Assembly: GCA_016932575.1 (NCBI GenBank)
Contig: JAFGCO010000039.1
Location: 1 to 59,429, forward strand
DNA: 59,429 nucleotides
Source of the DNA: a bacterium
Lineage (GTDB): Bacteria; Zhuqueibacterota; QNDG01; JAFGCO01
Direction: 5' to 3'
Made by a program: the position numbers and the translations under genes
The notes under the pieces: generated by a model
Seen by the model: only the letters and a program-made list of their open reading frames with translations
Database searches by the model: none
Told to the model about the DNA's origin: nothing
Part shown: positions 2,571-25,397 of the stretch, piece by piece
How the letters are laid out: each line of letters opens with the position of its first letter
How positions within the stretch are numbered: the first letter of the stretch is position 1

Positions 2571-2975
2571 CTAAACGGCCCAATACTTCCTTAAAGCCAG
2601 ATCATTCAGAAAAACAATATCATATTGATCCATTGCTTCGAATCCTGCCCAGACATACTCACTGGATTCTTCGTTCAGCACAATTTCTCCCGTTACATGA
2701 CATTCAAAATAAAAGGTGATATAATGTTCCTGTAAAGATTCTGTGGGCAGATTATCCAAATAAAATAAAAAACGCTTCGAAATACATTTCAAAGCCGTCT
2801 CTTCCTCAATTTCTTTTTCGACTGTATCCTCAATTGTATCACCAAATTCAACTTTCCCGCCCGGCAAGCACCAGCTGCCGGAATCATGCGTACTGTGACT
2901 GCGTTTGAGCAGTAAAATTTCATTTTTTTGATTGCAGATAATGGCACGGACAACAGGGATTGGAAGTTGATACAT
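2571..2975 (-). CDS. Nudix hydrolase
   Basis: A 134-residue protein when started at the ATG at 2975, which has GGAG eight bases upstream; an ATG at 3041 would add 22 residues but lacks a ribosome binding site. The Nudix box is clear but slightly off consensus: GKVEFGD then KEIEEETAL, with Asp for the first Glu, Lys for Arg and Ala for the late Gly. The metal-binding Glu residues of REUxEE are kept. A YQLPIPVVRAII strand start and a GSWCLPGGK lead-in are typical of the family. It should hydrolyse a nucleoside diphosphate linked to another moiety; the substrate cannot be read from sequence. It stands alone between the surface protein and the ATPase gene. Confidence 0.85.
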   Translation of the reverse strand: MYQLPIPVVRAIICNQKNEILLLKRSHSTHDSGSWCLPGGKVEFGDTIEDTVEKEIEEETALKCISKRFLFYLDNLPTESLQEHYITFYFECHVTGEIVLNEESSEYVWAGFEAMDQYDIVFLNDLALRKYWAV

Positions 2976-3209
2976 CCAAAATTCTCCGGTTGATATACGG
3001 TTAAAAAAATTTTTAAACTTTAAATAATTTCGTCTGCACACATCGGGGAACTTGATTGTAATGACCGCATGGAATCATGAACAGCAGGTACACTTTATCA
3101 TTTTTTTAAAAACGTGTCAGGCAGCGGATTATCATCGTTCTTGATCCGGATGCTTTTATGGTCCTTTTATATCATGCATTGCCCATTTCATTGACCTCTC
3201 TCTGATGGC

Positions 3210-5831
3210 TTACTCATGACTGCCAGTGTTCAAAGTGAATACAATTTTATACTTTGCCGCTTTCAATATATCCACATACTTTCGAACAGAATTCCTGTCC
3301 TTCTCCTTATCCGCCTCGGAAAGTTGTGCATAGGCAATTAAACAATTATGCGTCTTTCTCGCATCGTTCCGCCTGCCTGGTGTCCAGCCGTTCCTCCGTT
3401 TTTGATCCATCCAGCCTTTGTGCTCGGCCTCGGCGAGCAATTCGATATTCTGTTCCATCAACGACTTTATTTCTTTTTCGGATTCTCTGACCGGATAAGA
3501 TTCCGGAACAACATAAAGACCGATCAGATCCAGAACCTGATGGATTCTTTCGGCAGCCGCCCGATTGTCTTCTTTGTAATCCTCAGACAAATTCTCATAA
3601 TCCACATCCATCTCCTGTTTCAGCCACTTTTCCTTTCTGCCAAGCTTCCGATAACAGGCATGCACAAACGGCGCCAGTATTTCTGCATGGGTTCTGAATT
3701 TTAAATCACGATTGATTATATCGACGAATTGATCATAGTCGACGTGCAATGAAATAATTTCCGGTGAAGGCAAGTCAGAACGACGAATAGCGACCTGTTC
3801 CGGTCGTTTCACCTGCGATATTATCTTATCAAGAGATCGGGATCCGTGCTTATATTTGTCGATCTCAATAAAAGCAGAAAGCATTCCATGGTCAATATTG
3901 AGATAATCAGTCTCTTTCAATCTCAGCATCGAGCGCATCAGCAATGCCCGTCTCACAGGAAAACAGATATCATTGTCATCCTCCTGCCATTTATTTATTT
4001 CAAGATCAAAATACTGTCTTCGATTCGGTCCCAGAACGTTCAGATAACCGCTCAAACGGCTGATAAAATCCGGTCCTTTTTTCAGCTGAAACTTTTGCCA
4101 TTGATCTGACTCTTCTTTCCGTGGCCCGAAGTTTTCCATGGTCAAACTCGTCCCACCTGCAAAGATGAAAATACATTTTCCAATCGGGTGGGTGATCTGA
4201 CCTTCCTGAAATTTGCCATCCTGCATGGGAGCGAGAAGATACTGCAGCCAGAAATATTCTTTTGAATCGAATTCATCCCAGAATACGATCGGAGTGGTGC
4301 CTTCCAGCACTTTATCACGAACCTGATGAAAAGCCCCGATTAAACAACCGGGATCATTGCTGAATTGAGAAAGGTTAAATTCCAGAATCGGGACATTTTT
4401 CCCAAAAATCCCTTCTGCAATCTGAACAATACCAAACGACTTACCGGAACCAGGAGGGCCAAACACAGCCATTGAAAGCGGCTTTTTGCCTTTGTCTTTT
4501 TTTTCATAGTCCAGAATGAGCTTGCTGACATTCCGCAAACTTTCAATCTCATTTCGGTCCACTGTGAGCAAATCCCCAAATCTGGCGTAAGGAATGTCGG
4601 CCAGGGCCTTCGGACCGATCAGTGCCACTCTTCTTCCCACACCGTAAAGAGGACGCGGATTCTTTTTGGCACCCTCTAAACACGCAGTCATTATCGTCCA
4701 GTTATTATGATTAGACTCTCCCGGATCTTCAGGCACCGGCAACGCAATGTTTGAATAGTGGTAATGCGGCTGATGAATATCCTGAACGACCCCGTTCATC
4801 GGGAAACCGGCAGGGCGTCCGTTTTGCTTGGTTTTCAGGTACCCGTGACCATTGATATGCATGGTTCGCATAGTGGACAATCCGGCCTGAATACCCTTAT
4901 TAAAATCCATTCTCTCACCGGATTGAATCAGACAGGCAACCATACCGGCCGTAAAACAGGTCATGTATCCCAATCCCATGCCGGAAAACTGGTCCAGCCA
5001 CTCCCCTTCCATGAAAGCCGGATCATAAAAAAGCCGGAACTTTTTATGGTTACCGTCTTTTTTTACAAGAAGGGCCCCTTCTGTACCAAGACGGACTATC
5101 AGGTATTTACTGGCAAGCAATTGATTGATGGCCGGATTAAAGAGAAGCTCACGGGTCAAATCCAGCGCGGTTCTTTCCCAGGATATCCCCCTGGATATTT
5201 TGACTTCTTCTTCCCGAATATCATCAATGGATACAATTGTAATTAAACGGTCTTTGTATTCAGTGCTGAGCAGTCTCCACAAATCCCCCTGACCAAGCGG
5301 TTTGGACATTTTCAGAACAATCCATTCAGGACTGTCCTTCTTTCTGTTTTGAAGCATACCGGGCCAGGCCTTAACCTCTGTGTTGTGCCTAAAACCCAGT
5401 CCGCTGTCATTAATAACCAAAATATCCGATGCCTGATTAGAGGCATTGCTGATATATGCCGAATAGGGGAAAAAGGGAGTATTTAAATGACCATAACCCA
5501 GTGTCCGGGCCATCCTCCATACAAAATGATCCGAACCGGCTTTCAAAGGGCATGGCTTCCAGAGTGCATACCTGTGTAAATTGGTATAGAGCTTCCCGAA
5601 TATGGTCTTATTGTATCCAAATTGAACCCGAAAAGGAACAGCCTTTTCATTGTGGTTCCTTTGGTGACTGATCACTTCGAGCATTTTATACAATAACCCG
5701 GCTCCGCCATTGGTCTTTTTAATATGGGTGCCGAGAGACTGGATGGAACTTGATGAGTTGCGCTCTCCCAGGTAAATATGATGATCGATTAACACATCAC
5801 CTGTGATCAAAATGACAGGCTTATTGTTCAT
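3210..5831 (-). CDS. Degenerate PfkB-like domain - AAA ATPase - RyR domain protein
   Basis: An 873-residue protein with GAGGGG ten bases before the ATG. Residues 1-350 resemble a PfkB/ribokinase fold: ITGDVLIDHH at the start, NGGAG at 41-45, VRLGTEGALLV at 246-256. The catalytic GAGD motif is GMGLG (284-288), so the kinase base Asp is absent and a ligand-sensing role is more likely. Residues 450-640 form a P-loop ATPase with Walker A GPPGSGKS (458-465) and Walker B PIVFWDEFD (514-522). Residues 797-860 match a RyR (ryanodine receptor repeat) domain: HKGWMDQKRRNGW, then GRRNDARKTHNCLIAYAQL. Prokaryotic RyR domains occur in predicted nucleotide-responsive conflict proteins. It is followed on the same strand by the AAA+ regulator and is divergent from the ubiquitin-like operon, so it may be its sensor. 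Confidence 0.8.
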   Translation of the reverse strand: MNNKPVILITGDVLIDHHIYLGERNSSSSIQSLGTHIKKTNGGAGLLYKMLEVISHQRNHNEKAVPFRVQFGYNKTIFGKLYTNLHRYALWKPCPLKAGSDHFVWRMARTLGYGHLNTPFFPYSAYISNASNQASDILVINDSGLGFRHNTEVKAWPGMLQNRKKDSPEWIVLKMSKPLGQGDLWRLLSTEYKDRLITIVSIDDIREEEVKISRGISWERTALDLTRELLFNPAINQLLASKYLIVRLGTEGALLVKKDGNHKKFRLFYDPAFMEGEWLDQFSGMGLGYMTCFTAGMVACLIQSGERMDFNKGIQAGLSTMRTMHINGHGYLKTKQNGRPAGFPMNGVVQDIHQPHYHYSNIALPVPEDPGESNHNNWTIMTACLEGAKKNPRPLYGVGRRVALIGPKALADIPYARFGDLLTVDRNEIESLRNVSKLILDYEKKDKGKKPLSMAVFGPPGSGKSFGIVQIAEGIFGKNVPILEFNLSQFSNDPGCLIGAFHQVRDKVLEGTTPIVFWDEFDSKEYFWLQYLLAPMQDGKFQEGQITHPIGKCIFIFAGGTSLTMENFGPRKEESDQWQKFQLKKGPDFISRLSGYLNVLGPNRRQYFDLEINKWQEDDNDICFPVRRALLMRSMLRLKETDYLNIDHGMLSAFIEIDKYKHGSRSLDKIISQVKRPEQVAIRRSDLPSPEIISLHVDYDQFVDIINRDLKFRTHAEILAPFVHACYRKLGRKEKWLKQEMDVDYENLSEDYKEDNRAAAERIHQVLDLIGLYVVPESYPVRESEKEIKSLMEQNIELLAEAEHKGWMDQKRRNGWTPGRRNDARKTHNCLIAYAQLSEADKEKDRNSVRKYVDILKAAKYKIVFTLNTGSHE

Positions 5832-5964
5832 TGATTCCCCTCATTTAATTTCATTTTGATGGTAAAACAATGTCTTATCCTCATGCAATCACTGAGTGAG
5901 CTTTATTGATTCATTTAAATAGCATGAGTACATCAACACTTACCAGGCGCGAAAATATGTATCA

Positions 5965-7683
5965 TTATCTGCTGACAATATCTTCTATTTCCTGGATAAT
6001 GATCCCTTGCGTCACGATATATTGATCAGCAATATCTTCTTTCCAGTACTGAACCGCTTTCTTGATGCTCGTTTTGATCTGTTTACGAAAATTATGCAGC
6101 AAATCACTCAGTTTTCTAATTTGCGAATACACCCTTGGTTTCCGAAACAGAGCAGGATGCAGCAGCAATGTCTCGAGTTCAGAAAAATGCCTGTACAATC
6201 TTTCCTCAATTTCTTCCTTTATTTCTCTTTCATTCTTCTGCATGGTTAAGACCGGACTCAGGGTAATTTCTATAGCACGTAAAACTTCATCCATCCGTTT
6301 GAGCCGCCTTAGGCAATCGATGCGATGTAACCCGAATTCCTTTTCATCGGTCTCAACCGTCTGCAGGCCGAACATTTGTTTATCAAACATCAGGACCGCC
6401 CTCAAATGTGCAACTTTCAGATGTTCTTCACCAAATAAATTAACCAGTTGTGAAAGAATCATCTTAAGCTCCCGGGCATTCCCCGGCCAATGGTACTGCC
6501 GCAGCTCTTTTATAATATCCTCTGGCAATGCTGTATCATGTTTGGTATATCTTTTCCAGAAATGTCTGGCCAATCTCGCAATATCATCCGGATGGTGCCG
6601 AAGCGCCGGCGTGGGAATTAAAAAAGAGCGCAATCGATAATACAGGTCTTCCCTGAACTGTTCCTTTCGTACCATGGAAAACAGATCCCGGTTGGTTGCT
6701 GCAATGATTCTGACATCAACATCGATCGTTTCATTGGAACCGACCTTGCGTATGGCCCCTTCATCCAGAGCTCTTAAAATCTTGGCCTGATGTCTTAATG
6801 AAAGATCTCCGATCTCATCCAGAAAAAGACTGCCCTTATCAGCATACTCCCAGACACCTTTTCTATCAATAGCATCCGTATAGATTCCTTTTTTAGATCC
6901 AAACAGCTCCGTTTCCAGCAATTCGGTCGGAATGGCACTGCAGTTAATCGCTGCGAAGTGCTTGTTTTTACGGGGACTGTAATTGTGAATATTGCGTGCC
7001 ACGACTTCCTTGCCCGTGCCTGTTTCCCCCGTAATCAGGACCGGATCATCATTTTGAGAGGCCCGCAGGATGAGTCTGCGGATCAGCTTGATTTCACGCG
7101 ACTCCCCGACATAACTCTTTCTTAAATCCTCGGGTACTTCCATATCCGATATCAACTTGAGAAGTTCCTGATAAAATTCCGACCTTTCGAGGGGCCGGCA
7201 AAGTATCTGGTACTGATCAAATAATGTTGCCTTGGACGGTGACTTGAGGCTCCCCGCAGAATCCCAGATCGTGTCAAACAGAAGGGAATCTATGCCGATA
7301 AAATAAATATTTTCTCTGTCGTTGATTTTTTTCAGTGCAGACAAATCAGTATGTATCTGCCTGTTGGCCTCTTCTATGTTTTTAAGCAGACTCTGGCAGC
7401 CCCTTTTAAACTGACCAGACAATTTATAAGAGGCCCGAATCAATGGTATCTTCTCATGCTGAAGCATGTAATCAGCCAATCTTTTCCCCTGATGCTTATG
7501 ACCCCGGTCAATCACATTATCAAGCAGTAAATGGCTCACCTCGGATTTTTTTACGACAAATATTGCGGGTGCATTTTCTTTTTTAATATTTTCAAGCGTT
7601 GTCCCGGATTCCAAGTTGAATCGATATTGAAAAAATCGATCCGAAGCGTGAAATCCTGAAATTTTCAATGATTGAATTTCCAT
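5965..7683 (-). CDS. Sigma54-activator-type AAA+ protein without a recognisable DNA-binding helix
   Basis: A 572-residue protein with AAGGTGG just before the start. Residues 1-190 are an unrecognised N-terminal domain, not a receiver domain. The central AAA+ domain (about 190-420) is that of bacterial enhancer-binding proteins: YVGES, Walker A GETGTGKE, NCSAIP, LFLDEIGDL, RIIAATNRDL, FREDLYYRL and HWPGNARELK. The sigma54-contact loop, normally GAFTGA, reads GIYTDA. The C-terminal 150 residues are helical and I see no Fis-type helix-turn-helix, which is unusual. Its gene is divergent from the ubiquitin-like operon with a 378-bp shared upstream region, so it is the likely local regulator. RtcR-like activators have the same general layout (sensor domain plus AAA+), but I cannot confirm a CARF fold here. 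Confidence 0.8.
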   Translation of the reverse strand: MEIQSLKISGFHASDRFFQYRFNLESGTTLENIKKENAPAIFVVKKSEVSHLLLDNVIDRGHKHQGKRLADYMLQHEKIPLIRASYKLSGQFKRGCQSLLKNIEEANRQIHTDLSALKKINDRENIYFIGIDSLLFDTIWDSAGSLKSPSKATLFDQYQILCRPLERSEFYQELLKLISDMEVPEDLRKSYVGESREIKLIRRLILRASQNDDPVLITGETGTGKEVVARNIHNYSPRKNKHFAAINCSAIPTELLETELFGSKKGIYTDAIDRKGVWEYADKGSLFLDEIGDLSLRHQAKILRALDEGAIRKVGSNETIDVDVRIIAATNRDLFSMVRKEQFREDLYYRLRSFLIPTPALRHHPDDIARLARHFWKRYTKHDTALPEDIIKELRQYHWPGNARELKMILSQLVNLFGEEHLKVAHLRAVLMFDKQMFGLQTVETDEKEFGLHRIDCLRRLKRMDEVLRAIEITLSPVLTMQKNEREIKEEIEERLYRHFSELETLLLHPALFRKPRVYSQIRKLSDLLHNFRKQIKTSIKKAVQYWKEDIADQYIVTQGIIIQEIEDIVSR

Positions 7684-8061: not shown

Positions 8062-8517
8062 ATGTATAAAATTACTGAAAAACCGCTGCATACCGATCCA
8101 CTCACTTTCACAGATGATTTATACATCACGATTCACTCGCATAAAGACATTGTTTTTACTGAAAATCCTGATCATTCTCATTCTGTTCTGGCTTCTATTA
8201 TAAAGAATGACCGGTCAGTCTATCTGTTTAAAGACAGCAGGTTGAGTGGCTTCGACATTCTCGTTAATGGTCAAAAAGTCTTTTCTTTTACGCCACTTCC
8301 CGTGAATTGCAATATTTCAGTCTGCCATCAGGATAAAATCCATGATTTTTCCTTTGAATATACTGAGGACAGAAAAAAAACGGCTTCCACATCCTATTGT
8401 CCATATTGCTGGCTGCCTTTTGAAAAAAACGAGCAGGTGATTTGTATTAAAGGAGATGAATTCCATGAATGGTGTGCAGAAAAAATTCAGGAATTTAATA
8501 TCAAAAAAACCCATTGA
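8062..8517 (+). CDS. Small protein with C-terminal treble-clef (RING-like) zinc finger
   Basis: A 151-residue protein, first gene of the long rightward operon, with GGAG seven bases before the ATG. Residues 15-100 are rich in short beta strands and include DSRLSGFDILVNGQKV, reminiscent of an FHA-like sandwich, but this is not certain. The C-terminus holds C113-x2-C116, C128, then H135-x2-C138, a compact metal site like the prokaryotic RING/treble-clef fingers known from operons with E1, E2 and JAB genes. By analogy it may recruit targets or the E2 (an E3-like role); this is inferred from context. The next gene starts inside its 3' end (53-bp overlap), so the two are probably co-translated. 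Confidence 0.65.
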   Translation: MYKITEKPLHTDPLTFTDDLYITIHSHKDIVFTENPDHSHSVLASIIKNDRSVYLFKDSRLSGFDILVNGQKVFSFTPLPVNCNISVCHQDKIHDFSFEYTEDRKKTASTSYCPYCWLPFEKNEQVICIKGDEFHEWCAEKIQEFNIKKTH

Positions 8518-9676
8518 TAACACTGCCAGGACAGCGCGCATTCATAAAATTCCCTGGATGCAGCTTGAAAAAATCCAAAACACCATTCCCGTAGTATTGG
8601 GTTGCGGGATGAACGGGCATTATGTTATCCTTAATTTTGCAACACTGGGTGTAAAAAAAATAATCGTGATCGATCCTGACAGACTGGCTCCTACCGATCT
8701 GGGAAAAACCCTCTTTCCTGAGCATCATGCAAAAAGAAAAACACTGAAAGTCGATGCGATTAAAGCCATGGTTCGAGCTGTCAATCCATCGGTTGCTGTT
8801 TCCTCCTATCCGATGAGTTTTTCGGTTTTTCCCAAAAGCATTATTTTGGATTTGCTGAATAACGGATCGGCCATTTTTCCCATCATTACCGTGGATAACC
8901 GGAAAACAATGCTGCAGGCGAGTCTTTTCTTCCGCTTACTTAACCAGACAAGCTACATGGGCGCATTAACAGCGCCGCAGCTTAAATCTCAAGTTTATGT
9001 GTCCAGACCGGACAGTGGCTGCATTGCCTGCCTTTTTACAGAAGAGGATTATAACTTTTTATCTATTCAAGAAAGCTGTACCGGAGAAGCAGGCGCTCCG
9101 GCATTAAATTCTGTAGCTGCTCAATGCAGTTCAGGCATTATTCATGAAATATTTAAAAATTCCATGAGCCAACTGGATGCTCAGACAGAGGAATCATATA
9201 AGATCGTTTTTTCAAGTCTGCAAGGATTTGAATCTCTGAGCATTCCTGTATCCGGCCGATGCCGGTATCATTATTCATCGGCAAAAAAAGTCATCTCAGC
9301 AAAAAAAGAATGGACGCTGGATACACTTTTTAAACAGTGTTCACAAAGTCTAAATTCTGCAGAAAATGACATCCATTTAAGTTTTGCTTTGCAGGATAAG
9401 AAATATCATTTGTCGGCCCGTTGTTCGAAATGTGGCTCTGTTTTCCCTCTGGGGAGTATCGACCGACAGGGAAAACGATGTTCTCAATGCAATGAAAAGA
9501 ACAAAATACTGATACCTGATCGTTATCAGGAAAAAATAACAAAAAACGATCTGACCTTAACCTATCCCGAACAATTGAACCAAACATTGAACGATATTGG
9601 CCTGCTCAGCCGGGATGTCCTGTTTTGTTCGACATCCTCTAAAAAGAAATCAGTACTGATTCGTATTCAGAAATAA
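8465..9676 (+). CDS. E1-like (ThiF/UBA-fold) ubiquitin-activating enzyme, divergent
   Basis: A 403-residue protein. I prefer the ATG at 8465 because AGGAG lies nine bases upstream; an ATG at 8456 sits directly against it. The Rossmann nucleotide-binding motif GCGMNGH (46-52) is followed by IDPDR (about 69-73), and TVDNRK (about 142-147) takes the place of the usual DNxxxR segment. The family NLNRQ motif is replaced by TDLGKTLF, so the usual ATP-binding Arg is not evident. C186-x2-C189 and a C-terminal CxxC...CxxC pair suggest zinc binding; C205 in ESCTGE is a possible thioester cysteine. The expected role is to adenylate a small ubiquitin-like protein and pass it to the E2 encoded next. Confidence 0.85.
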   Translation: MNGVQKKFRNLISKKPIDNTARTARIHKIPWMQLEKIQNTIPVVLGCGMNGHYVILNFATLGVKKIIVIDPDRLAPTDLGKTLFPEHHAKRKTLKVDAIKAMVRAVNPSVAVSSYPMSFSVFPKSIILDLLNNGSAIFPIITVDNRKTMLQASLFFRLLNQTSYMGALTAPQLKSQVYVSRPDSGCIACLFTEEDYNFLSIQESCTGEAGAPALNSVAAQCSSGIIHEIFKNSMSQLDAQTEESYKIVFSSLQGFESLSIPVSGRCRYHYSSAKKVISAKKEWTLDTLFKQCSQSLNSAENDIHLSFALQDKKYHLSARCSKCGSVFPLGSIDRQGKRCSQCNEKNKILIPDRYQEKITKNDLTLTYPEQLNQTLNDIGLLSRDVLFCSTSSKKKSVLIRIQK

Positions 9677-9692
9677 ACCAAAGAGGAACTTT

Positions 9693-10316
9693 ATGCCCCT
9701 GAATAAAAAAGAAAGCAACCGACTAATCCAGGAAAAGGCGCTGCTGGAAAAATGGATTGTGAATCATGACCGCATTTCAATCCAGGAAACAGGTGGAAAT
9801 CCGCCGACTTTCTATCGGATTGTGTTTCAAAACATAAAAACCACAGTGGTTCAGAACAAGGAAGATCTGAAATTGACCGAACCGCCGGTAAAAATCATGC
9901 CGGTCACCATTGTCATGACGATGAATTTGGAAAACTATCCTTTATCAAAGCCGGAGATCATCATGAGCCCTGCATTTGATCAAAAAGGATCCATTCTTTA
10001 TCTGTATAATACACATGTACTTTTCTTCAGTGTTTGTTTATTTACCAGATGGCACATTCAGTTTACCCTGGTGGATGTGATCCGGAGAGCATGGAATCTT
10101 ATTACATACAATCATCATATCATGGGCCTCGACAGAAAGGACTGCCTTAATCCTTATGCGCTTGAATATTATAAGACCATGATGCTTAAACAAAAACTTT
10201 ATTTTCCATTGGATACAGCAATCGAATATGAGGACCTTTCGATGCTGCATCAACAAAAGAAAAATCCAGGTGCTTTATTTAAATTTTCAAACCTGAAGAA
10301 CGGGACAATCAAATGA
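9693..10316 (+). CDS. E2-like (UBC-fold) conjugating protein
   Basis: A 207-residue protein with GAGGAAC before the ATG. The core matches the E2 signature: MNLENYPLSKPEIIMSP (YP..PP-like strand segment, 77-93), His108, then Cys115 followed by Trp120 and a TLVDVIRRAWNLI helix. This reproduces the E2 order HPN...C...W...L..v...l. Cys115 is the predicted thioester cysteine that takes the modifier from E1. The region after residue 140 is specific to this protein. It follows the E1 gene by 16 bp and its stop overlaps the next start as ATGA, so the products are made together. The fold assignment comes from motif order only. Confidence 0.72.
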   Translation: MPLNKKESNRLIQEKALLEKWIVNHDRISIQETGGNPPTFYRIVFQNIKTTVVQNKEDLKLTEPPVKIMPVTIVMTMNLENYPLSKPEIIMSPAFDQKGSILYLYNTHVLFFSVCLFTRWHIQFTLVDVIRRAWNLITYNHHIMGLDRKDCLNPYALEYYKTMMLKQKLYFPLDTAIEYEDLSMLHQQKKNPGALFKFSNLKNGTIK

Positions 10317-10993
10317 AGCCACAGGTGGTTAAAAACCGGTCCAGAAAAACTCTATCCATGAACTTTTCATCTGCCAGGGAGACAGATCCCTGGCATTGTC
10401 TGATGCAAAATCTGGCCAACCCTGTTCGTCACGGAATAGACCTGCAGGGAAAATGTTATTTGTCCCTGGACCTGCCTTCGGAACAGGAAGAAAACACATT
10501 GGACTACTGGCTCAAAAATTTTCAAAAAGTACAGAAAGAATGGCTGTCCGGACGATGGGCCAAAGAACGAAAACTGTCCAGACAAATCAATAGAGAGACG
10601 TTCCCGATCTCACAGGAATTCAAGTGTGATGTCTATTCATACGGTCCTTTCTATACCTGTGTCTACAAATTGCCATTGTTTTTATTTCAAACAGATCAAA
10701 CCGAAACCGGGGAAAATAAAAAGACAGTCATCGCTCCTGCAGTTTACGGATGTTATGTCAATACCCGTATTCATTTCGGCAATCTTTTTTTCACACAGGC
10801 AATGGGATGGGGATTGTGTATCACTTTTTCAAGGCATTCCTGTTACAATGATCAGAATGCCATGCTTAAGCGGTTTCATGACCTGACCATTCATTTCAAA
10901 CAACAGGCATGGCCGAATATTATTTCTATGTACAATCCAAGGTTGGCCCATGAATTTCTTATCAGAAATGGGCTGAAACAAGCTGCATCTTAG
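10313..10993 (+). CDS. Unknown protein of the ubiquitin-like operon
   Basis: A 226-residue protein joined to the E2 gene through an ATGA overlap and followed 21 bp later by the small modifier-like gene. I do not recognise it. It is rich in aromatic residues and Cys, with a YGPFYTCVYKLPLF segment and a GNLFFTQAMGWGLCITF strand-rich stretch in the second half that suggest an alpha/beta or all-beta core. No signal peptide or membrane helix is visible, so it is probably cytoplasmic. Tight coupling to E2 suggests a co-factor of conjugation, such as an E2 partner or target adaptor; this is a guess from position. Confidence 0.6.
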   Translation: MKPQVVKNRSRKTLSMNFSSARETDPWHCLMQNLANPVRHGIDLQGKCYLSLDLPSEQEENTLDYWLKNFQKVQKEWLSGRWAKERKLSRQINRETFPISQEFKCDVYSYGPFYTCVYKLPLFLFQTDQTETGENKKTVIAPAVYGCYVNTRIHFGNLFFTQAMGWGLCITFSRHSCYNDQNAMLKRFHDLTIHFKQQAWPNIISMYNPRLAHEFLIRNGLKQAAS

Positions 10994-11014
10994 GCCGAAA
11001 GGAGGTGAAGTCTG

Positions 11015-11290
11015 ATGGGTGAAATCACCTTTAGACTCAGAGATGCCACTCAGTCTCATAAAGTTCAAACGGTAAAATTTCGAGAGGATGACAATCCGTT
11101 GGTGTCCGAGTTCAAAGCAAGTTTGAGTGAACAAATCGTTCGTGGTTCGGAAAGCAATGGATTGGAAGGTGAAACGATCCAACTGACCAACAAATCTCGA
11201 AACAAAGCCATTGTCGAAGGCTACTTGCGTGATCAAGTGTCTGAAGACGAAGAGGTGATCTACGGGACTGATGGTGTTGCGGGTCGGTGA
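11015..11290 (+). CDS. Candidate ubiquitin-like modifier 1
   Basis: A 91-residue protein whose start has the best ribosome binding site of the operon (AAAGGAGGTGA), as expected for a protein needed in excess. The order of secondary structure fits a beta-grasp: strand ITFRLRD, strand VQTVKFRE, helix PLVSEFKASLSEQI, then strands ETIQLTN and VEGYLRDQ. It ends GVAGR, so an Ala-Gly end with one extra Arg is present, not the classical Gly-Gly. It lies between the E2-side genes and the JAB gene, the usual place of prokaryotic ubiquitin-like genes. The call rests on size, layout and neighbours and needs a fold prediction. Confidence 0.6.
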   Translation: MGEITFRLRDATQSHKVQTVKFREDDNPLVSEFKASLSEQIVRGSESNGLEGETIQLTNKSRNKAIVEGYLRDQVSEDEEVIYGTDGVAGR

Positions 11291-11306
11291 CAGCTTGTTT
11301 TACAAC

Positions 11307-11346
11307 GCCGGGTGGCAATTCAATGAATGGGTCACCCGGCAATTTT
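11307..11346 (+). terminator. Hairpin after the modifier gene (attenuator or processing stem)
   Basis: GCCGGGTG at 11307-11314 pairs perfectly with CACCCGGC at 11333-11340; the loop can form an inner ATTC/GAAT stem. AATTTT follows. It lies 16 bp after the modifier-like gene and before the JAB gene. The T-run is short, so partial termination or protection of the upstream mRNA end is more likely than a full stop. It would make the modifier more abundant than downstream products. Confidence 0.55.
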
Positions 11347-11387
11347 AAAAATTAACACATAACGTCATCCTTATAACCGGGGGCATC

Positions 11388-12488
11388 ATGAACCAGTCAG
11401 ATCATGACTATTTTGTGGATTATATTGACCGACTGCAGGTGTACAGGCAAGAAGAAACCAATACCCATTTTCTTCAATTGCATTCATATAAAATGGATCT
11501 TGGTGAAATCGCGGACTTTTGCATCTTTGAAAAGCAGGTTAAAAATGAAATACCTGACTCGGTTCGGTATATACTGAAATCCGGCCCCTCTCCGGAGATT
11601 GCCACATCAGATTCTGAAAAACAATCATATGGGGATCTGTTAAACGAGATTCAGATACAGATAATGTTTAAAAATCGGGGAAAACACAATATGATTGACC
11701 TCAATTCGATCAATCTGAAAACGCATGCATATTACCTCTTGAATAAAATTCAAATTCATGCCGGCCAAAACAGAATCAATCCGGTGTCTCAGGAAATTCG
11801 GCTGGTCAATCTAAAAATGAATTCGGTCATTGACAAATCAGACAAAACCGGGATTTTCTCTTTCAATCCAAGCCGGCAAAAAACGTTCAGATTTGATGAG
11901 AAACCGATTCCAAAGGATAATTCTCTTATCTGCTGGCAGGGGGGAACAGTGCAGGGAATGATTCCAATAGTTATCTCCAAACGCATTCTGAACATTTTTA
12001 AGGAAGCCATTCAACAGCACCACCCAAAGGAAATCGGAGGACAACTGGCAGGTCATCTGATAAAATTTCGTCATCGAAAAGCACTCATAGTGACGGATTT
12101 ATATTTTTTTAATTCAATTGGCAATGAAACCTCATTGATGATTTCAGCTGAGGAATATATTCGCACTGCCCAGCTTATCGAAAATGAAAACAAAATCATC
12201 GCAGGATGGATACATTCACATGCACTGGGTCAAAACAGCCTGTATTGTTCTTCTGTTGATATTAGCAATCATTATCAAAAATATACAATGCCTTATGCGG
12301 TGATGATGATTGCAGATGGATCTCAACTTACAAAATCCATAGAATCCGTGGGATGCGCACAATGCCCCTACAGGGCACAATGCACTTTGCCTGAAACGCT
12401 AAAGAAAAATCTTATTCCGGGCTGGACCCTTTATACATGGACACCCAATGGTTTTTTAATGCCCGCTCATGCCCATGTCTTTGAGTAG
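11388..12488 (+). CDS. JAMM/JAB-type isopeptidase 1 (AMSH-like)
   Basis: A 366-residue protein. Residues 1-185 are an unassigned N-terminal region. Residues 190-320 form a JAB/MPN metalloprotease: Glu215 in HPKEIGG, then GWIHSHALGQ with His276 and His278, then SSVD with Ser288 and Asp291. The spacing after the second His is two residues longer than the usual HxH-x7-S-x2-D, but SSVDISNHYQKY is very close to eukaryotic AMSH. All metal and catalytic residues are present. A CAQCPYRAQC cluster at 323-332 may bind zinc. It should trim the modifier precursor or remove it from targets. It follows the modifier gene in the same operon. Confidence 0.88.
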   Translation: MNQSDHDYFVDYIDRLQVYRQEETNTHFLQLHSYKMDLGEIADFCIFEKQVKNEIPDSVRYILKSGPSPEIATSDSEKQSYGDLLNEIQIQIMFKNRGKHNMIDLNSINLKTHAYYLLNKIQIHAGQNRINPVSQEIRLVNLKMNSVIDKSDKTGIFSFNPSRQKTFRFDEKPIPKDNSLICWQGGTVQGMIPIVISKRILNIFKEAIQQHHPKEIGGQLAGHLIKFRHRKALIVTDLYFFNSIGNETSLMISAEEYIRTAQLIENENKIIAGWIHSHALGQNSLYCSSVDISNHYQKYTMPYAVMMIADGSQLTKSIESVGCAQCPYRAQCTLPETLKKNLIPGWTLYTWTPNGFLMPAHAHVFE

Positions 12489-12575
12489 GCTTGATAGCAA
12501 ACTGAGCATATAAGTGTCTTTTTAACCAAGGTCAATTTTTAAAAGGACAGATGTAAAAAGAAGTGGAGGTTTGTA

Positions 12576-14162
12576 ATGGCAGAAAGCTTGTATCAGCAAA
12601 AAGAACAGATACAAGAAATAAACTGGAAAGAAGTCGAAGCCATTCTTCAGGAAAATGATGCTTTACGTAAAGAACTGAAGATCCGTGATGAAAATAAACC
12701 CCTGCATATTGCAGTCGTGGCTGAAGATTATAATCAGACAAAGTATCGAAATACCCTGATACCGCCGGCTACAAAGAATACGGATAAAATGCTGCCCCAG
12801 ATCAAAGTGATCGATCCAAGTGGAGGAGAGGTGATTGTCCCGGTTCACAATAAAATCAATCCAACATATCTGAAAAAGGGGAATACGGTTTATGTTAACG
12901 GTGATTCCCTGGTCATTGGGGCAAATGGTTTTTATGAAGGTGGAGAGGTTCTGTCATTTGAAAGAATACTGGAGGATGGCCGTATTGTTTTAAAAAGTGA
13001 ATCAAGCAATACATCAATCCTTTGCTGGCCGAGTCAATCCCTTGATACGACTGCATTAAAAAAGGGAGACGGTATCCGGCATTTGGGCTCCGTTGCATTA
13101 GAAAACGTTGGTCAATCCCTGAATCTGGATGATTTGACAATGATCCCTGAATATAAGCCTTATTCTGACATTATCGGAGATCGATGGAAAGAAATTTTCA
13201 ATATTTATTCAAGAAAAATCCAGTTGCTTTATAACCGGATTAAAAATAACACTCAAACCGGCCGAAAATATTTGAGCATCGCTCTCTGGGGATTAAATGG
13301 CAACGGGAAGACATCCGGGGCCCAGTGTATGATCTGGGATGCAGCCCAAAGATTCGGTATTTCAGATAAGAAAAGTATTATTGTTGTTAAGGCAGGTGAA
13401 ATACTCTCGAAATGGGTTGGACAAACACAAAACAACATCGCCAATATTTTTAAAAAACTCAGAGAGATCTCTGCAGAACACGGCTTTGCTATTCTAATGA
13501 TTGACGAATTTGATGCGCTCTGTCACGGAGGGGGAGGAGATACGGAAAGCTCCTGGATTGAAACTTCCATTGTGCCCCAGTGGAAAGCAGAACTGCAGGG
13601 GATGATACCCCTTGAAAATGTATTGATTATTGTCACCCTGAATGATAAACGCAATGTTGAAGCTGCCATCTTGAGAAGATTTACGGATATGGAGGTGATC
13701 GCACAACCCGAATGCGTTCCGCCACTGATGCATCATATTTTCCGTAAAGAATGGGCTGATCAAAAGTTGAATACCGACCGAATCTCAAAACCACTGATGC
13801 ATTTTCTCAAGTCACAATCCTTGGGAAAACTGCATTTTGCAAATAAACATTTTCGGGAATTCTATCCTGCTGATATCATGTGCTATGCGGATATAGAAAA
13901 TATCTGTATTGAATCCATAGAGATAGCTGAATTTGAAGAAAGACAACCCACTGAAAAAGACATACTGGCGTGTGCTCAAAAACTTTATACCGAAAAGGCA
14001 AAACGAATCCGGGTTGGTGTTGAGAATGGAGTCAGGCGCTCCAATGCGCGTAATTATTTCAATTTGTCAGATGAAGAGTTCAATCATCTTGACAGTGTCA
14101 TCCTCTCTGAAAATCAGTCGCATTCCGGTCATTTGACCGCAGATGACATGGAGGATTTATAA
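12576..14162 (+). CDS. Proteasomal/Cdc48-type AAA unfoldase (ARC/Mpa/PAN-like)
   Basis: A 528-residue protein with GTGGAGG upstream of the ATG. An N-terminal coiled coil (about 10-40) is followed by one or two OB-like beta barrels (70-180) and a single AAA module: Walker A GLNGNGKT (239-246), pore loop WVGQTQ (280-285), Walker B ILMIDEFD (306-313), sensor-1 TLND and arginine fingers in ILRRF (365-369). Coiled coil, OB and AAA in this order is the plan of ARC/Mpa and PAN, the ring ATPases that feed tagged proteins to proteasomes. No proteasome subunit is encoded here. Given the conjugation genes beside it, it probably recognises modified proteins and unfolds them. It is followed within one base by a second unfoldase gene. 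Confidence 0.82.
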   Translation: MAESLYQQKEQIQEINWKEVEAILQENDALRKELKIRDENKPLHIAVVAEDYNQTKYRNTLIPPATKNTDKMLPQIKVIDPSGGEVIVPVHNKINPTYLKKGNTVYVNGDSLVIGANGFYEGGEVLSFERILEDGRIVLKSESSNTSILCWPSQSLDTTALKKGDGIRHLGSVALENVGQSLNLDDLTMIPEYKPYSDIIGDRWKEIFNIYSRKIQLLYNRIKNNTQTGRKYLSIALWGLNGNGKTSGAQCMIWDAAQRFGISDKKSIIVVKAGEILSKWVGQTQNNIANIFKKLREISAEHGFAILMIDEFDALCHGGGGDTESSWIETSIVPQWKAELQGMIPLENVLIIVTLNDKRNVEAAILRRFTDMEVIAQPECVPPLMHHIFRKEWADQKLNTDRISKPLMHFLKSQSLGKLHFANKHFREFYPADIMCYADIENICIESIEIAEFEERQPTEKDILACAQKLYTEKAKRIRVGVENGVRRSNARNYFNLSDEEFNHLDSVILSENQSHSGHLTADDMEDL

Positions 14163-14163
14163 A

Positions 14164-16077
14164 ATGGCCAACGGTCGGACAGTGAATCATGAAAACAGAA
14201 ATTCTCTTTTTTTGTTCCGGGAAATACGGGATACCGATCGCCGTCAAGGCTATCGGGACACCTGGGCCTTGGCCAGCCAATTCAACGGTAACATTCAGGT
14301 GATAGAGCAATTGGGCATTATTGACCTCACACAGGCAGTCTATGAAAACGGGATGGAACGATGTGTGGGTATGGGCCGTGAAGTGAGAAAAGTGTTTACC
14401 ATACTCTGCCAAAGATATTCAAACACACCGCTTATCCATGGGAAAAATGGTGTGGGCAAAAGCTCCATTCCAAAACATATGGCTCACAGGATTGTTAACG
14501 GCAGGGTTATCACGCCGTTTCATACATGCCGGATTCTCAGCCTGAATCTGGCTTTGTTAACAGCAGGTGCCGGTATGCGCGGCGAGGTGGCTCAGAGGTT
14601 AAAAGATTACTTTGATATGTTAGATAAAAATCCCCATGTCATTACAGTCATTGATGAATGCCAGTTATTGGCAGCCAGAGATTTTATGGAAAGCGAAATT
14701 ATTCATTTTTTAAAAGTCAATCTGAGCAATGGAAAATACCGGTTTATCCTGATTACTGATTCAGCAGGCGTGGGTCTGATTACTGAGGATCCTGCAATAA
14801 TGGGGCGGGTATCTCCTGTTGAAATCCCCGTGCCCGGCGAACGTTCGGTGATACGAATCGTTCAAGGGGCAGTCTTGCCGGAATTGGAGCGGCATTATAA
14901 AATAAAAATACCGAAAAATCTGATTGAAACTGCTTACAAACTGAGCGAAGAAGTTTTATCGTATGACAGGGAACAACCGGCAAGATGTATCAAATTCATG
15001 GATACTTCCATGGCCCATACAAGCTATATTAAAACTCTCAGGAGATTGTCCGATTCAAGTTCAACTTTACTGCGGGAAGAAAACCTCGAAACGACAGCAA
15101 AGGAATTTCTGCAATCGAGCCGCTCAACACTCTGTCAGAAAGAGCGTTTAAGAAGACTCGACATACTCGCAGACACATTAAAAAAACAGATTATTGGTCA
15201 GGATGACATTATTGACGCAATTGTCCAGGATTTACAACTGAAGTTTCATCAGAAACCATCCAGGATTGGTGCCTATTTTCTCTACGGGGATAGTGGTACT
15301 GGCAAAACTGAACTTGCCACACAAATCGGGATTCAACTGAGCGGGGAACGGTTCTGGGTAAGAATTGATTGTTCCCAGCTCATTGATCGATGGGCAGTCA
15401 CCACACTCCTTGGAAGCTATCCGGGATTAATATACAGTGACAGAAGCTCGATGTTCAGCAGAATTCGCTTCAGCCCTTATACAACATTTATTTTTGATGA
15501 ACTGGAAAAAGCCCATCCGGAAGTGATCATGCTGTTTTTACAGATACTTCAGCCACCGTACATTATCCGGGACAATCGAGGTGTAAAACTGGATTTTTCA
15601 AGATCACTCTTTTTTTTCACAAGCAACGTTGCACATACGGATCAGGACAAGCAGACTTTTGGATTTCAAAATTCAAATAACATAAGTTTCAAAAAGGATG
15701 GTCTTCAATTGACAGCCTATTTTCCAAATGAATTTCTTGGCCGGCTTCATAATAAAATTTATCGTTTTCATCCGATCGATAGAATGAAGGATCTTCTTCT
15801 GATATGTGACCTTGAAATTGCCAAACTGGCAAAACGATGGGATGTTGAATTGCTGATAACAGAAAAGGCAAAAAGATCCCTCATTGATTCATCTCTTTGC
15901 AAGCGATTTGGAGTCAGGGGGATACAATCCGAGTTGTCACGCGTCATTGAACCTCAGCTTTGCAGGATCTTAAAAAATCGTTTTGATCGTATGGAAGGCA
16001 GGAGAGGAGAACCAATAATCCAAAAAATAAAAATTATCAAGAGTGGAAATCAGGTCAAACTGATTTCCGGAAAATAA
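14164..16077 (+). CDS. ClpA/ClpB-like double AAA+ unfoldase without N-domain
   Basis: A 637-residue protein. The ATG at 14164 has GGAGG nine bases upstream inside the preceding gene; an ATG at 14143 would overlap it with no signal. Two AAA+ modules are seen. D1 has Walker A GKNGVGKS (93-100) and Walker B TVIDECQ (161-167). D2 has IGQDD, Walker A GDSGTGKT (375-382), FIFDELEKAHPE (442-453), TSNVAH and VRGIQSEL. There is no Clp N-domain and no ClpB middle coiled coil, so it is shorter than Clp proteins. FGF (499-501) lies where ClpA/ClpC carry the [IVL]GF/L loop that docks ClpP. It may hand tagged substrates to ClpP or disassemble complexes. Confidence 0.82.
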   Translation: MANGRTVNHENRNSLFLFREIRDTDRRQGYRDTWALASQFNGNIQVIEQLGIIDLTQAVYENGMERCVGMGREVRKVFTILCQRYSNTPLIHGKNGVGKSSIPKHMAHRIVNGRVITPFHTCRILSLNLALLTAGAGMRGEVAQRLKDYFDMLDKNPHVITVIDECQLLAARDFMESEIIHFLKVNLSNGKYRFILITDSAGVGLITEDPAIMGRVSPVEIPVPGERSVIRIVQGAVLPELERHYKIKIPKNLIETAYKLSEEVLSYDREQPARCIKFMDTSMAHTSYIKTLRRLSDSSSTLLREENLETTAKEFLQSSRSTLCQKERLRRLDILADTLKKQIIGQDDIIDAIVQDLQLKFHQKPSRIGAYFLYGDSGTGKTELATQIGIQLSGERFWVRIDCSQLIDRWAVTTLLGSYPGLIYSDRSSMFSRIRFSPYTTFIFDELEKAHPEVIMLFLQILQPPYIIRDNRGVKLDFSRSLFFFTSNVAHTDQDKQTFGFQNSNNISFKKDGLQLTAYFPNEFLGRLHNKIYRFHPIDRMKDLLLICDLEIAKLAKRWDVELLITEKAKRSLIDSSLCKRFGVRGIQSELSRVIEPQLCRILKNRFDRMEGRRGEPIIQKIKIIKSGNQVKLISGK

Positions 16078-16206: not shown

Positions 16207-16596
16207 ATGAAAAAGCAACAGGAAAAAGAAGCATCCAAAACTGTAAAAGTGTCTGTTCGGGCGGGTTTTGGAAGCAAACTAAGCACGCAATTGCCCCTAA
16301 ACAGTCTGCAAAATACTTCTGTGAGCGATTTGGCCAAAGTAGTCGTCAAGGAACATATCAAAAGTCCGGATATCTCAGCACAAAAGGCAGCCGAATCACT
16401 GAATGACATTTTGCAGGATCCTTTCTCTGATATCGATATGCGTATGCATACGCAGAATGAGGTTATCCCTGTCTCGAGCGATGTTGAACACGAAAAAATC
16501 CGGAATCTGATTAATGAGAAAAAACTTCATTCAGATGATATCATGGAATTTGAATTGGCAGCATCAAGAATGGCCAGAGGGGGCCATGATCAATGA
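16207..16596 (+). CDS. Candidate ubiquitin-like modifier 2 with ARGG-HDQ end
   Basis: A 129-residue protein with GGAGG before the ATG. It opens with a Lys/Gln-rich tail (1-11), then strand TVKVSVRAG, strand KLSTQLPL and helix SVSDLAKVVVKEH, the start of a beta-grasp pattern. It closes with EFELAASRMARGGHDQ: Gly125-Gly126 after an Arg, as in ubiquitin (LRLRGG), followed by a three-residue tail that an isopeptidase would have to remove. The middle part is longer and more helical than in ubiquitin. Its stop overlaps the next start (ATGA). A JAB and a full E1 gene follow, consistent with its being their substrate. It could instead be an unrelated small helical protein. Confidence 0.5.
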   Translation: MKKQQEKEASKTVKVSVRAGFGSKLSTQLPLNSLQNTSVSDLAKVVVKEHIKSPDISAQKAAESLNDILQDPFSDIDMRMHTQNEVIPVSSDVEHEKIRNLINEKKLHSDDIMEFELAASRMARGGHDQ

Positions 16597-18047
16597 GTTC
16601 ACAATTTCCGGAAATACCATTATTCGAAACATTAGAAATACTGCTGCATAAAGATGAACCGTTATTTTTATCGAATGATACAATATATGAATTGATAAAA
16701 TATTCAATCCCCAATACATCTGCCAGGCCATTGAATATTGTCCTGACTTCCGGTTCTGTACAGGACTGTATTCGAAATGACATGAAGCAAGTATTGAAAA
16801 CACTTCTTCATTCTATCCTGAAAGAATGGAATATTGATGAATGCTTTTTTGAGGACTTATCTCTCTATTCCTTTCTTTCAGAGATTGAAAAACGTATGTG
16901 TGAAATTGCCGCCTGCAGAAAGTTTAAAAAAACAATTCAGCTGGATCTGCTAGAGTCACTTCAAATTCAGGAACATGACATCCAAAATATCAGAATGTTT
17001 CAGAGTGAAACTGAATCCGCTTTGAATAAAATATCACAAAAATATCATTCAGGATTCAATTACCTCCTTAAGAATTTGTGGATTGAAAACCTGTTTGTTT
17101 ATCAGCTGCCGCACGATGAAAGCCTTTATATGCAGCAGGTCTTAAATGACATGAAGGCTTTAATATCAAATAACATGAATGATTTGATGGGCATGCTGTA
17201 TCAACGGGAAATGATACCTGAATTTCTTCGCGGGCGAAGAATGCACCGATATATCATCGGGCTTCTTGAGCAGGACAAATCATTCCTCACAAATCTCAAA
17301 TCTTCCAACCGGATGCTGAAAAGGGCAAAGAAAAAAATCAAAATGAAGGAAATGCCGAACATGTCGCTTGACATATTCAGAAAACAATTTTACAGAAAAG
17401 TGCAGAAACAATGTCAAAAAATGAAGGCAGAATTCCTTACTGAAAAAACAATGATCAGACAACTTCGTTATATGAGACAAATCCTGAAGCAAATGAATTC
17501 AATGCATATCAGCCTCATGACTGAATATGGGCAATTTCAATGCGGTCCGTTTGAGATCCGATATAATGGCCGGGGACAGTTTCATTTTGGCTACCATACA
17601 GGCCAATATATCATGCAGGATGGAGATGAACCGTTTTCCCAATACTATCTTTTTGATGATGCCTATGTTGCTGTTCCCTTAACCAAAAAAGATATTAAAA
17701 GAGGCTATTTGGGATCGAGCATACCTCCGCCTGTTGTGGTCAATTCATATGGCCCTCATCCGTTTCTCCAGAATCCGCAAACAAAAAACCAGGTGATCTG
17801 TCTGGGAGACACCGCTGTATCAGAGTTGGTTGACAAGAGACATCCACTTGTGGACAGGGTCATGAATGCCATATTAATGGGAGTAAAAGTCATGCGTGAA
17901 GGGCATCATATGAAGAATAAAAATTCCTATTATTTCAAGCTGTCTGACCCGATTTTCAGTACAAGACGCATCGATAAAAAAGGGCTGAAGACATATGCTG
18001 AAAACAGTTTTATCTCAAAATATCATAAAAAACCAAGGGGCATATAA
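16593..18047 (+). CDS. Unknown operon protein, possible second E2-like domain
   Basis: A 484-residue protein coupled to both neighbours (ATGA overlap upstream; the next ATG follows its stop directly). Residues 1-310 are mainly helical with a Lys/Met-rich coiled segment at 240-300. Residues 315-440 are strand-rich and hold an E2-like string: IPPPVVVNSYGPHPFL (377-392), then NQVICLGD with Cys403, then a helix VDRVMNAILMGVKVM. This mirrors the E2 order pP.v.f...HPN...G.iCl...helix. If correct, Cys403 would be the thioester cysteine of a second conjugation cascade with the JAB and E1 downstream. Otherwise it is an unknown scaffold. No membrane segments are seen. Confidence 0.5.
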   Translation: MSSQFPEIPLFETLEILLHKDEPLFLSNDTIYELIKYSIPNTSARPLNIVLTSGSVQDCIRNDMKQVLKTLLHSILKEWNIDECFFEDLSLYSFLSEIEKRMCEIAACRKFKKTIQLDLLESLQIQEHDIQNIRMFQSETESALNKISQKYHSGFNYLLKNLWIENLFVYQLPHDESLYMQQVLNDMKALISNNMNDLMGMLYQREMIPEFLRGRRMHRYIIGLLEQDKSFLTNLKSSNRMLKRAKKKIKMKEMPNMSLDIFRKQFYRKVQKQCQKMKAEFLTEKTMIRQLRYMRQILKQMNSMHISLMTEYGQFQCGPFEIRYNGRGQFHFGYHTGQYIMQDGDEPFSQYYLFDDAYVAVPLTKKDIKRGYLGSSIPPPVVVNSYGPHPFLQNPQTKNQVICLGDTAVSELVDKRHPLVDRVMNAILMGVKVMREGHHMKNKNSYYFKLSDPIFSTRRIDKKGLKTYAENSFISKYHKKPRGI

Positions 18048-18998
18048 ATGAACGCAAATCAAAAAAAGAAAAGACGGACAAAATCAAAAAAACAAGCGAT
18101 CCTTTGGATGACTGATTTTGCCAAAAAAAAACTCGACGGCTATGCTTCGATTGCAAACCGGGATGAATTTATGGTAATATTGCTTGGCCAAAAAAACAAC
18201 AAAGACGTGGTCGCCGATGTATTTTTGTTATATGACCAGACAATCGGATGCGGTTCTGTTAAAGTCTCCGGACGGGGGATCAATCAATCTCTCTGGGAAC
18301 TGCAGGATAAATATCCTGAAGAAAAATGGGAAATCCTGGGCTGGTCTCACGGACACGGAGATATGGATGTATTTCATTCTTCGATTGATGATGAAAATAC
18401 CCGGGAAATCTTTCTCGAACAACTGGCACCTGTTCGAATGGTTGTTAAAAACCTTGTTTCCCAAATGGAACTGTCAATGTGTGATAATAACCCGTATATG
18501 TATACCGATAACCGCGGCAGTTATCTGAAGTTTACGGATTTAACGCAAAAATCACTTCCTGCGACTATCAAGATGGAAAAACATACGCCATTTTATACAG
18601 GCTGGATATTCTCACTGGTCACCAACGCAAAACACCAATATTATGCAGAACGGTTTAGCAAACACTGGTGCAAAGAATGCAACCGGGTGGTAATTAAGCA
18701 AACTCAAATGACAGTGAAATTTTTAAAAACTCCATCTTCATGGAAACTCGATCTTTCAGATCTTGAGCGGGAGTTTTATGAAAAGACTGAAAGGTACAGA
18801 ATGGGCATTTCATACGGAAACTGGAATATTCATTATATGGTTGGCAATCAGCGGGGAAAATCAGGCAGTGAGAATATCCCCATGTCCTGTGACAATGAAA
18901 ACAGCCTGATTGATTTGTCCTCATGTGATGGATGTTACCGTTTTTCATATTTAAAAGGAGACAAAAATGGACAGGCTCCATCGTCAGAGGATCATTAA
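18048..18998 (+). CDS. JAMM/JAB-type isopeptidase 2
   Basis: A 316-residue protein that starts on the base after the preceding stop codon. After a Lys-rich N-terminus, the JAB domain (18-150) has Glu40 in RDEFMV and GWSHGHGD with His101 and His103, then HSSIDDEN with Ser111 and Asp114: a canonical HxH-x7-S-x2-D site. The second half has a WCKECNRV Cys pair near residue 210 and lacks recognised domains. It differs strongly from JAB 1, so the locus carries two unlike proteases, probably for two modifiers or for processing versus removal. Its 3' end overlaps the following E1 gene by 32 bp. Confidence 0.87.
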   Translation: MNANQKKKRRTKSKKQAILWMTDFAKKKLDGYASIANRDEFMVILLGQKNNKDVVADVFLLYDQTIGCGSVKVSGRGINQSLWELQDKYPEEKWEILGWSHGHGDMDVFHSSIDDENTREIFLEQLAPVRMVVKNLVSQMELSMCDNNPYMYTDNRGSYLKFTDLTQKSLPATIKMEKHTPFYTGWIFSLVTNAKHQYYAERFSKHWCKECNRVVIKQTQMTVKFLKTPSSWKLDLSDLEREFYEKTERYRMGISYGNWNIHYMVGNQRGKSGSENIPMSCDNENSLIDLSSCDGCYRFSYLKGDKNGQAPSSEDH

Positions 18999-22072: not shown

Positions 22073-22108
22073 AATTCAACTCTTCTATTCTTATATAGTG
22101 ATGTCAAG

Positions 22109-22176
22109 TTCGTAGTACCGGCTTTAGCCGGCCGGCAAACATCGCCTGAAGGCGGCGCTACGAACATCCACTCTCC
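22109..22176. repeat. REP-like palindromic element, copy A (RAYT-associated)
   Basis: A 68-bp unit with outer arms TTCGTAG and CTACGAA and two inner hairpins, CCGGC-TTTA-GCCGG and CGCC-TGAA-GGCG. It matches copy B at 22852-22919 with two differences. A partial third copy follows at 22185-22210. It lies just past the 3' end of the RAYT transposase gene, the normal place for such elements. Confidence 0.85.
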
Positions 22177-22228
22177 TTCCGCAGGTTCGTTGTTCCGGCT
22201 TCAGCCGGTGTTTTTAAAAATCATCCCA

Positions 22229-22813: not shown

Positions 22814-22851
22814 CTTTCTCCTTTTTATTTGAAGTTCGTTCGTAGTTCCGA

Positions 22852-22919: not shown

Positions 22920-22946
22920 TCCCCCGCGATAAACGGATCCCACGTG

Positions 22947-25316: not shown

Positions 25317-25397
25317 TTTATTTCCTTTTTCTTTGATATTGAGATCAGAAATATCTTCTTTTATACCTGCCGGATCGAAATAAACTCAGTAACCAGG

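Follow-up and report, generated by a model that had tools for sequence, protein, structure and literature searches.

One gene of the window, by which we mean the whole 59,429-nucleotide stretch of DNA analysed here, encodes a protein in which a PfkB/ribokinase fold without its catalytic base, an AAA+ domain and a tandem RyR domain follow one another. The protein and its family were named PAR (PfkB-AAA-RyR) in this analysis. We propose, with moderate confidence, that PAR couples a receptor for an ADP-ribose-type nucleotide to an AAA+ motor, that its pseudo-sugar-kinase serves as a second sensor, and that it belongs to nucleotide-signalling conflict islands.

A conserved three-part protein with a patchy distribution

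The extent of the gene given by an earlier sequence-only reading held (Table 1), and its strand is minus, the plus strand there being full of stops. The domain order of that reading (PfkB fold, AAA, RyR) was confirmed using Pfam for RyR, Pfam together with motifs for AAA, and AlphaFold2 with Foldseek and VIA for the PfkB fold. On the window protein itself, Pfam reported RyR at residues 780–863 and a sub-threshold AAA match at 455–523, and nothing else convincing. In PADLOC, PAR matched no system, the sole hit being a weak one on the AAA stretch (mad8, E 0.005).

PAR is present as a single copy in its own genome, a 4.4-Mb draft. Approximately 35 homologues (the full-length members at loci L003–L012 and about 25 more) were found in several phyla at 28–59% identity, nearly all aligned over the whole length, indicating that the layout did not arise by chance. 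Contig matches placed relatives in Actinomycetota, Acidobacteria, Chloroflexi/Anaerolineales, Desulfobacteraceae, Planctomycetota and Chlorobiaceae. The distribution is patchy, with PAR found in 8 of 82 genomes of its own phylum and in 4/301, 8/297, 16/296 and 2/246 genomes of four other phyla. PAR is widespread in bacteria yet uncharacterised.

Table 1. Positions of PAR, its domains and key residues, and neighbouring genes in the window
Feature	Position	Strand	Basis or remark
PAR gene (P0001), pseudo-PfkB, AAA+, tandem RyR protein	3210..5831	-	873 aa; ORF and full-length homologues
PfkB/ribokinase-fold domain, residues 1-365, catalytic base lost	4737..5831	-	AF2 and Foldseek/VIA
Substrate motif GD..xD, D12 and D16	5784..5798	-	alignment; invariant 36/36
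GG of substrate-lid motif, G42 and G43	5703..5708	-	alignment; G42 36/36, position 43 24 G and 12 S
GAGD-motif position G288-Y-M-T291	4959..4970	-	hhalign and alignment; Asp to Thr, Ser in most homologues
AAA+ domain, residues ~424-645	3897..4562	-	Pfam and motifs
RyR repeat 1, residues ~708-779, degenerate (H724, Y727, Q739, N756)	3495..3710	-	hhalign, Pfam, alignment
RyR repeat 2, residues ~784-866	3234..3482	-	Pfam RyR (PF02026) E 6.5e-16; model
H804, counterpart of RyDEP H75 (ligand ribose, catalytic dyad)	3420..3422	-	alignment; 34/34 homologues
W807, counterpart of RyDEP W78 (adenine stacking)	3411..3413	-	alignment; 34/34 homologues
H828, counterpart of RyDEP H100 (phosphates)	3348..3350	-	alignment; 29/34 homologues
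D845, counterpart of RyDEP D117 (catalytic dyad)	3297..3299	-	alignment; 29/34 homologues
NUDIX hydrolase, 169 bases downstream of PAR, same strand	2571..3041	-	neighbour survey
NtrC/RtcR-like AAA protein upstream of PAR, same strand, 134-base gap	5965..7683	-	near PAR family in 6/39 loci
Divergent ubiquitin-like operon (FHA-like+RING, E1 with Zn ribbon, E2-like, unknown, Ubl candidate, JAB, ARC-like AAA, ClpA-like AAA)	8062..16077	+	context only

A PfkB fold without its catalytic base

None of the 36 members gave a Pfam match to PfkB (PF00294) at E 0.1, and NCBIfam returned nothing for PfkB in PAR; the fold was therefore established from structure prediction. For the full-length AlphaFold2 model (11 sequences, mean pLDDT 76, pTM 0.76), the top Foldseek matches were PfkB/ribokinase structures, and VIA aligned the N-terminal domain (residues 2–365) with pseudouridine kinase 7c1z over 272 residues, spanning model residues 5–370 (Z 18.8, rmsd 4.5). 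Fold prediction thus bore out an assignment that had been made from motifs alone.

The loss of the catalytic Asp had also been read correctly and extends to the whole family: the corresponding column in 36 homologues holds Ser (26), Thr (4), Ala (4), Cys (1) and Arg (1), and Asp in none. The motif first taken as the GAGD counterpart, GMGLG (residues 284–288), was a few residues out of register, the Asp falling on T291. This register was obtained by hhalign against the PfkB kinases of the same genome, in an alignment that was weak (probability 2.7%, E 0.017) and was used for register only; it matched G288 to the first glycine of the GAGD motif and T291 to the Asp. A helix at residues 289–303 of the model, after G288, agrees with this placement. 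Since none of the 36 homologues has an acidic residue in this column, the kinase is predicted to be dead across the family. The substrate side of the fold is retained, with D12, D16 and G42 invariant and position 43 either Gly or Ser.

It is very improbable that the N-terminal domain is still enzymatic by means of another catalytic residue. Such a reading would draw on the invariance of D12 and D16, and of R206, S217 and W218, which do not vary among the 36 homologues. However, the base position is non-acidic throughout, the anion-hole motif of PfkB kinases is altered in every PAR homologue, and GxGD is kept in the eight PfkB proteins of PAR's own genome.

Preserved AAA+ motifs

The AAA+ motifs of PAR comprise Walker A (458–465), Walker B (D519/E520), an Arg finger (R592, in PDFxSRL) and sensor 2 (R627/R628), their roles being presumed by comparison with Clp/MoxR-type AAA+ proteins. 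All were invariant or nearly so in 36 homologues, with G463, K464, D519, E520, R592 and R628 unchanged in 36/36, and because of this conservation the ATPase is expected to work. Pfam AAA was matched in all 36 members at E up to 0.1 (under the curated cut-off in the window protein), and bpMoxR was matched in 20 of them. A likeness to the pre-sensor-1 insert of Clp/MoxR-type AAA+ proteins is seen in the segment LLAPMQDGxFQxGQ...IFVFAGGT, which may correspond to it. In the model, the pLDDT of the AAA region was low at about 520–600, and the VIA list of the full-length model was filled by PfkB chains.

Two RyR repeats and a ligand quartet

The C-terminal RyR domain seen in the earlier reading was confirmed and proved to be a tandem; the tandem arrangement and the ligand quartet described below had been missed. 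Foldseek placed about 190 PAR residues on Repeat12 of RyR3, a stretch longer than a single RyR domain, and hhalign showed that residues 690–779 and 781–873 are homologous repeats (98.6%, E 7e-16). Two Pfam RyR stretches were present in five of the six homologues scanned (L012, L066, L064, L011 and L065). Furthermore, a model of residues 680–873 (pLDDT 86) matched the Bt-hRyR_12 chimera with a Z of 13.2 and human RyR3 Repeat12 with azumolene and AMP-PCP (9l91) with a Z of 12.7, unrelated folds reaching at most 4.5. In human Repeat12, ADP/AMP-PCP and dantrolene bind in the cleft between the halves (PMC12627627).

A Repeat12 relative from phage, RyDEP (DyoEdafos gp78), binds and cleaves 2'/3'cADPR via H75, W78, H100 and D117, as reported in a 2026 preprint (PMC13232231). 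The gp78 sequence carries these four residues, and in the alignment to PAR they fall exactly on H804, W807, H828 and D845, with matching spacing. This quartet, recognised at the sequence level, is the strongest new pointer to the function of PAR.

The same residues could belong to a signal terminator, in which the RyR tandem would be a glycosidase cleaving cyclic ADP-ribose as RyDEP does, the AAA+ and PfkB parts would regulate it, and self-damage by TIR immunity would be limited. The counterparts of the catalytic dyad H75/D117 (H804 and D845, the latter in 29/34 homologues) are consistent with this role, and the NUDIX hydrolase next door could process the product. However, when eight further phage RyR homologues were assayed, cADPR signals were bound by six and cleaved by none, despite the conservation (PMC13232231), a pattern that also fits the receptor reading. 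In PAR, five Chlorobi members lack the Asp yet retain H, W and H, a loss that would be compatible with binding but not with catalysis of the RyDEP type. Moreover, a purely catabolic enzyme would leave the conserved ATPase unexplained, and we regard a terminator as quite unlikely.

The receptor reading that we prefer is itself weakened by two features of the RyR region. D845 and H828 are each replaced in 5/34 homologues, and the His/Asp partners have degenerated in repeat 1 (Q739, N756), which makes the cleft identical to neither template.

Recurrent neighbours of PAR

Genes within 10 kb of PAR were tallied at 39 loci as raw counts, with no per-genome background. A SLOG-SLATT-type protein was present at 13/39 loci, an identity that rests on sub-threshold but recurring Pfam matches (SLATT_1, SLATT_3, YpsA). 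A RelA/SpoT-TPR-SLOG-RyR or other second RyR protein was present at 9/39, NUDIX at 6/39 and an NtrC-like AAA protein at 6/39. The SLOG-SLATT proteins had no sequence match in the PDB, some of the second RyR partners are TrkA_N-RyR fusions, and TIR domains occur in several PAR loci. YpsA-like SLOG domains include cADPR sensors (PMC9503650). Together, the SLOG, second RyR, NUDIX and TIR neighbours fit NAD/ADPR signalling, as do the TIR genes of the window described below.

At two loci only, L004 and L008, PAR is accompanied by NtrC-like, Clp-like, MoxR-like and vWA genes, the MoxR and vWA assignments being made by motif only. No scored partner gene was found at the 12 Chlorobi loci (L071–L082) and a few others, amounting to about 13–16 of the 39 loci. 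The 12 Chlorobi loci argue against an obligate conflict partner and suggest that PAR can function where the partners usual for it are missing.

A different role would be that of an energy- or sugar-status sensor in a general stress or proteostasis machine, in which the RyR tandem would read ATP/ADP, the pseudo-kinase would read a metabolite and the AAA+ domain would be an unfoldase or assembly chaperone, with no immune role. The Clp-like, MoxR-like and ARC-like AAA genes near PAR in the window, L004 and L008 are consistent with such a sensor, as are the stand-alone chromosomal copies in Chlorobi. Furthermore, animal RyR Repeat12 binds plain ATP/ADP (PMC12627627), and this counts against the receptor reading too, given that the signal could be adenylate charge. 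The SLOG-SLATT, RelA-SLOG-RyR, TIR and NUDIX neighbours, however, are typical of conflict systems, and the patchy distribution is unlike that of a housekeeping gene. We give the energy sensor a minor but real chance of being correct.

Further genes of the window, and the setting of some Chlorobi copies, were also recorded. At 30068–32737 on the minus strand, the window encodes a protein with RelA/SpoT, TPR, probable SLOG and RyR domains, a homologue of which adjoins PAR in L004, L012 and L027. An NAD-signalling island lies at 20978–36948 of the same strand, where TIR domains are encoded by at least four genes (20978, 27626, 32966 and 36169), some with TPR repeats. Two proteins, at 22947–25316 and 47006–49141 (both minus strand), have a C-terminal phosphofructokinase (PfkA) domain; the latter has an N-terminal TIR_2 match, and the former is similar by eye. 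The Chlorobi PAR genes inspected (L071, L074 and L078) lie amid housekeeping genes (recR-like, radC-like and others).

A sporadic link to ubiquitin-like conjugation

PAR lies directly across from the divergent ubiquitin-like operon of the window, and the sequence-only reading had implied a link to that operon and asked whether its homologues always accompany E1/E2/JAB operons. They are mostly unlinked, and the implied link is not supported for the family. E1 linkage was assessed by a direct ThiF search, the Pfam neighbour tallies being swamped by WD40 models and unable to show an absence of ThiF or JAB. An E1 was found within 10 kb of PAR in 2 of 40 PAR genomes, that of the window and that of the acidobacterium G665 (L064), some PAR contigs being too short to exclude an E1. 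Among five genomes with close relatives of the window E1, three (G516, G549 and G074) gave no PAR match.

These counts, together with the other neighbours, or none, that PAR has elsewhere, argue against PAR serving the conjugation operon as a dedicated part or regulator, for example as an unfoldase or adaptor for tagged proteins. The placement of PAR in the window supports such a role, as does a pair of FHA-like-RING and E1 (Zn-ribbon) genes like that of the window, which flanks PAR in G665; we nevertheless consider it improbable. The operon link is real at the window but sporadic, whereas the SLOG/RyR/NUDIX link is recurrent.

The Ubl candidate of the window operon ends in GVAGR. A second JAB and E1 unit, with a 484-aa protein ahead, directly follows the first operon at 16593–20271 (plus strand). 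In L064, FHA-like/RING and E1 genes lie beside PAR (4407–7652, minus strand); a truncated FHA-like fragment comes after them, along with a short RING-like ORF. In G074 (L115), the operon order is the same from E1 on, and the 7-kb contig begins just before the E1 gene.

The NtrC/RtcR-like protein upstream of PAR had been taken as the regulator of this operon, a role that its sequence does not support. Its sigma-54 contact loop (GAFTGA) reads GIYTDA, and the loop is also degenerate in relatives (L004, L008 and L065), reading HYLPEI, GSFTDA or IFTGAD. No C-terminal helix-turn-helix was recognisable in the protein. In addition, 25 sigma-54 -24/-12 sites were found in the window against 28 expected, and sigma-54 control is unsupported because the sites do not exceed chance. 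The protein may be an NtrC-type AAA that has taken up a role outside transcription.

Discussion

We propose that the C-terminal RyR clamshell of PAR would bind an ADP-ribose-type, NAD-derived nucleotide, which could be ADPR, 2'/3'cADPR or a closely related molecule. At the N-terminus, the PfkB fold would offer a non-phosphorylating pocket, occupied by a second small ligand (sugar, nucleoside or nucleotide), by analogy with Gal3p, in which a dead galactokinase serves as a galactose sensor. The ATPase would then be switched by ligand binding and would remodel a partner, thereby turning on a downstream effector. The partner would vary by lineage and could be a SLOG-SLATT membrane protein, a RelA/SpoT-TPR-SLOG-RyR or TrkA_N-RyR protein, or a MoxR/vWA-type module; in the window and in one acidobacterium it may be the ubiquitin-like conjugation operon. 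Such a receptor would probably act in antiviral or other conflict responses. The sensor-like layout suggested earlier, with a pocket at each end and a motor between, gains support from substrate-side PfkB motifs that are invariant with the base gone and from a RyR end with all four RyDEP residues.

A narrower reading is possible and is put forward tentatively: PAR may be a receptor that turns NAD-derived, cADPR-type immune signals into AAA+ work, a prokaryotic counterpart of the animal Repeat12 regulatory module with a pseudo-sugar-kinase as second sensor. If true, TIR/SLOG signalling would be connected to AAA+ machines, and the old question of whether the Repeat12 region of the animal ryanodine receptor reads cADPR would become more testable. 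PAR would also offer a clear example of a sugar-kinase fold that has given up catalysis for sensing. In the literature searched, RyR domains are tied to cADPR immune signals only by the 2026 preprint, where they act as countermeasures of phages (PMC13232231). Should this pocket serve host bacteria as a receptor on an ATPase, PAR would be a host-side relative, and possibly the origin, of the phage RyR proteins.

PAR can be compared with several known systems. The neighbours of PAR at L004 and L008 may be like those of MoxR-vWA and related NTP-dependent conflict systems, and SLATT effectors recur, although most PAR loci are without such genes; PfkB and RyR are unmentioned in the main text describing those systems (PMC7159879). 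Residues 2–365 share the fold and the substrate-side GD..D and GG motifs of the PfkB/ribokinase family (pseudouridine kinase, tagatose-6-P kinase), whereas a Pfam match, the catalytic Asp and an intact anion-hole motif are missing from all PAR homologues. Regulatory roles have been reported for the sugar-kinase relatives Gal3p, which binds ATP and galactose without catalysis, and plastid FLN1/FLN2 (PMC3409070); in contrast to PAR, Gal3p is of the galactokinase family and the FLNs have no AAA or RyR fusion. Repeat 2 of PAR and RyDEP are both members of the RyR/Repeat12 family, and each of the four RyDEP ligand residues (H, W, H and D) has an aligned counterpart in PAR. RyDEP, however, is a 138-aa single-domain phage homodimer, whereas PAR, known here from sequence and models, is bacterial and multidomain, combining a tandem repeat of its own with an AAA+ ATPase and a pseudo-kinase. 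As in Repeat12 of the animal ryanodine receptor (RyR3 848–1055; PMC12627627), two RyR repeats form one clamshell in the PAR model, although in PAR this module lies outside any channel, has a degenerate repeat 1 and is coupled to an ATPase.
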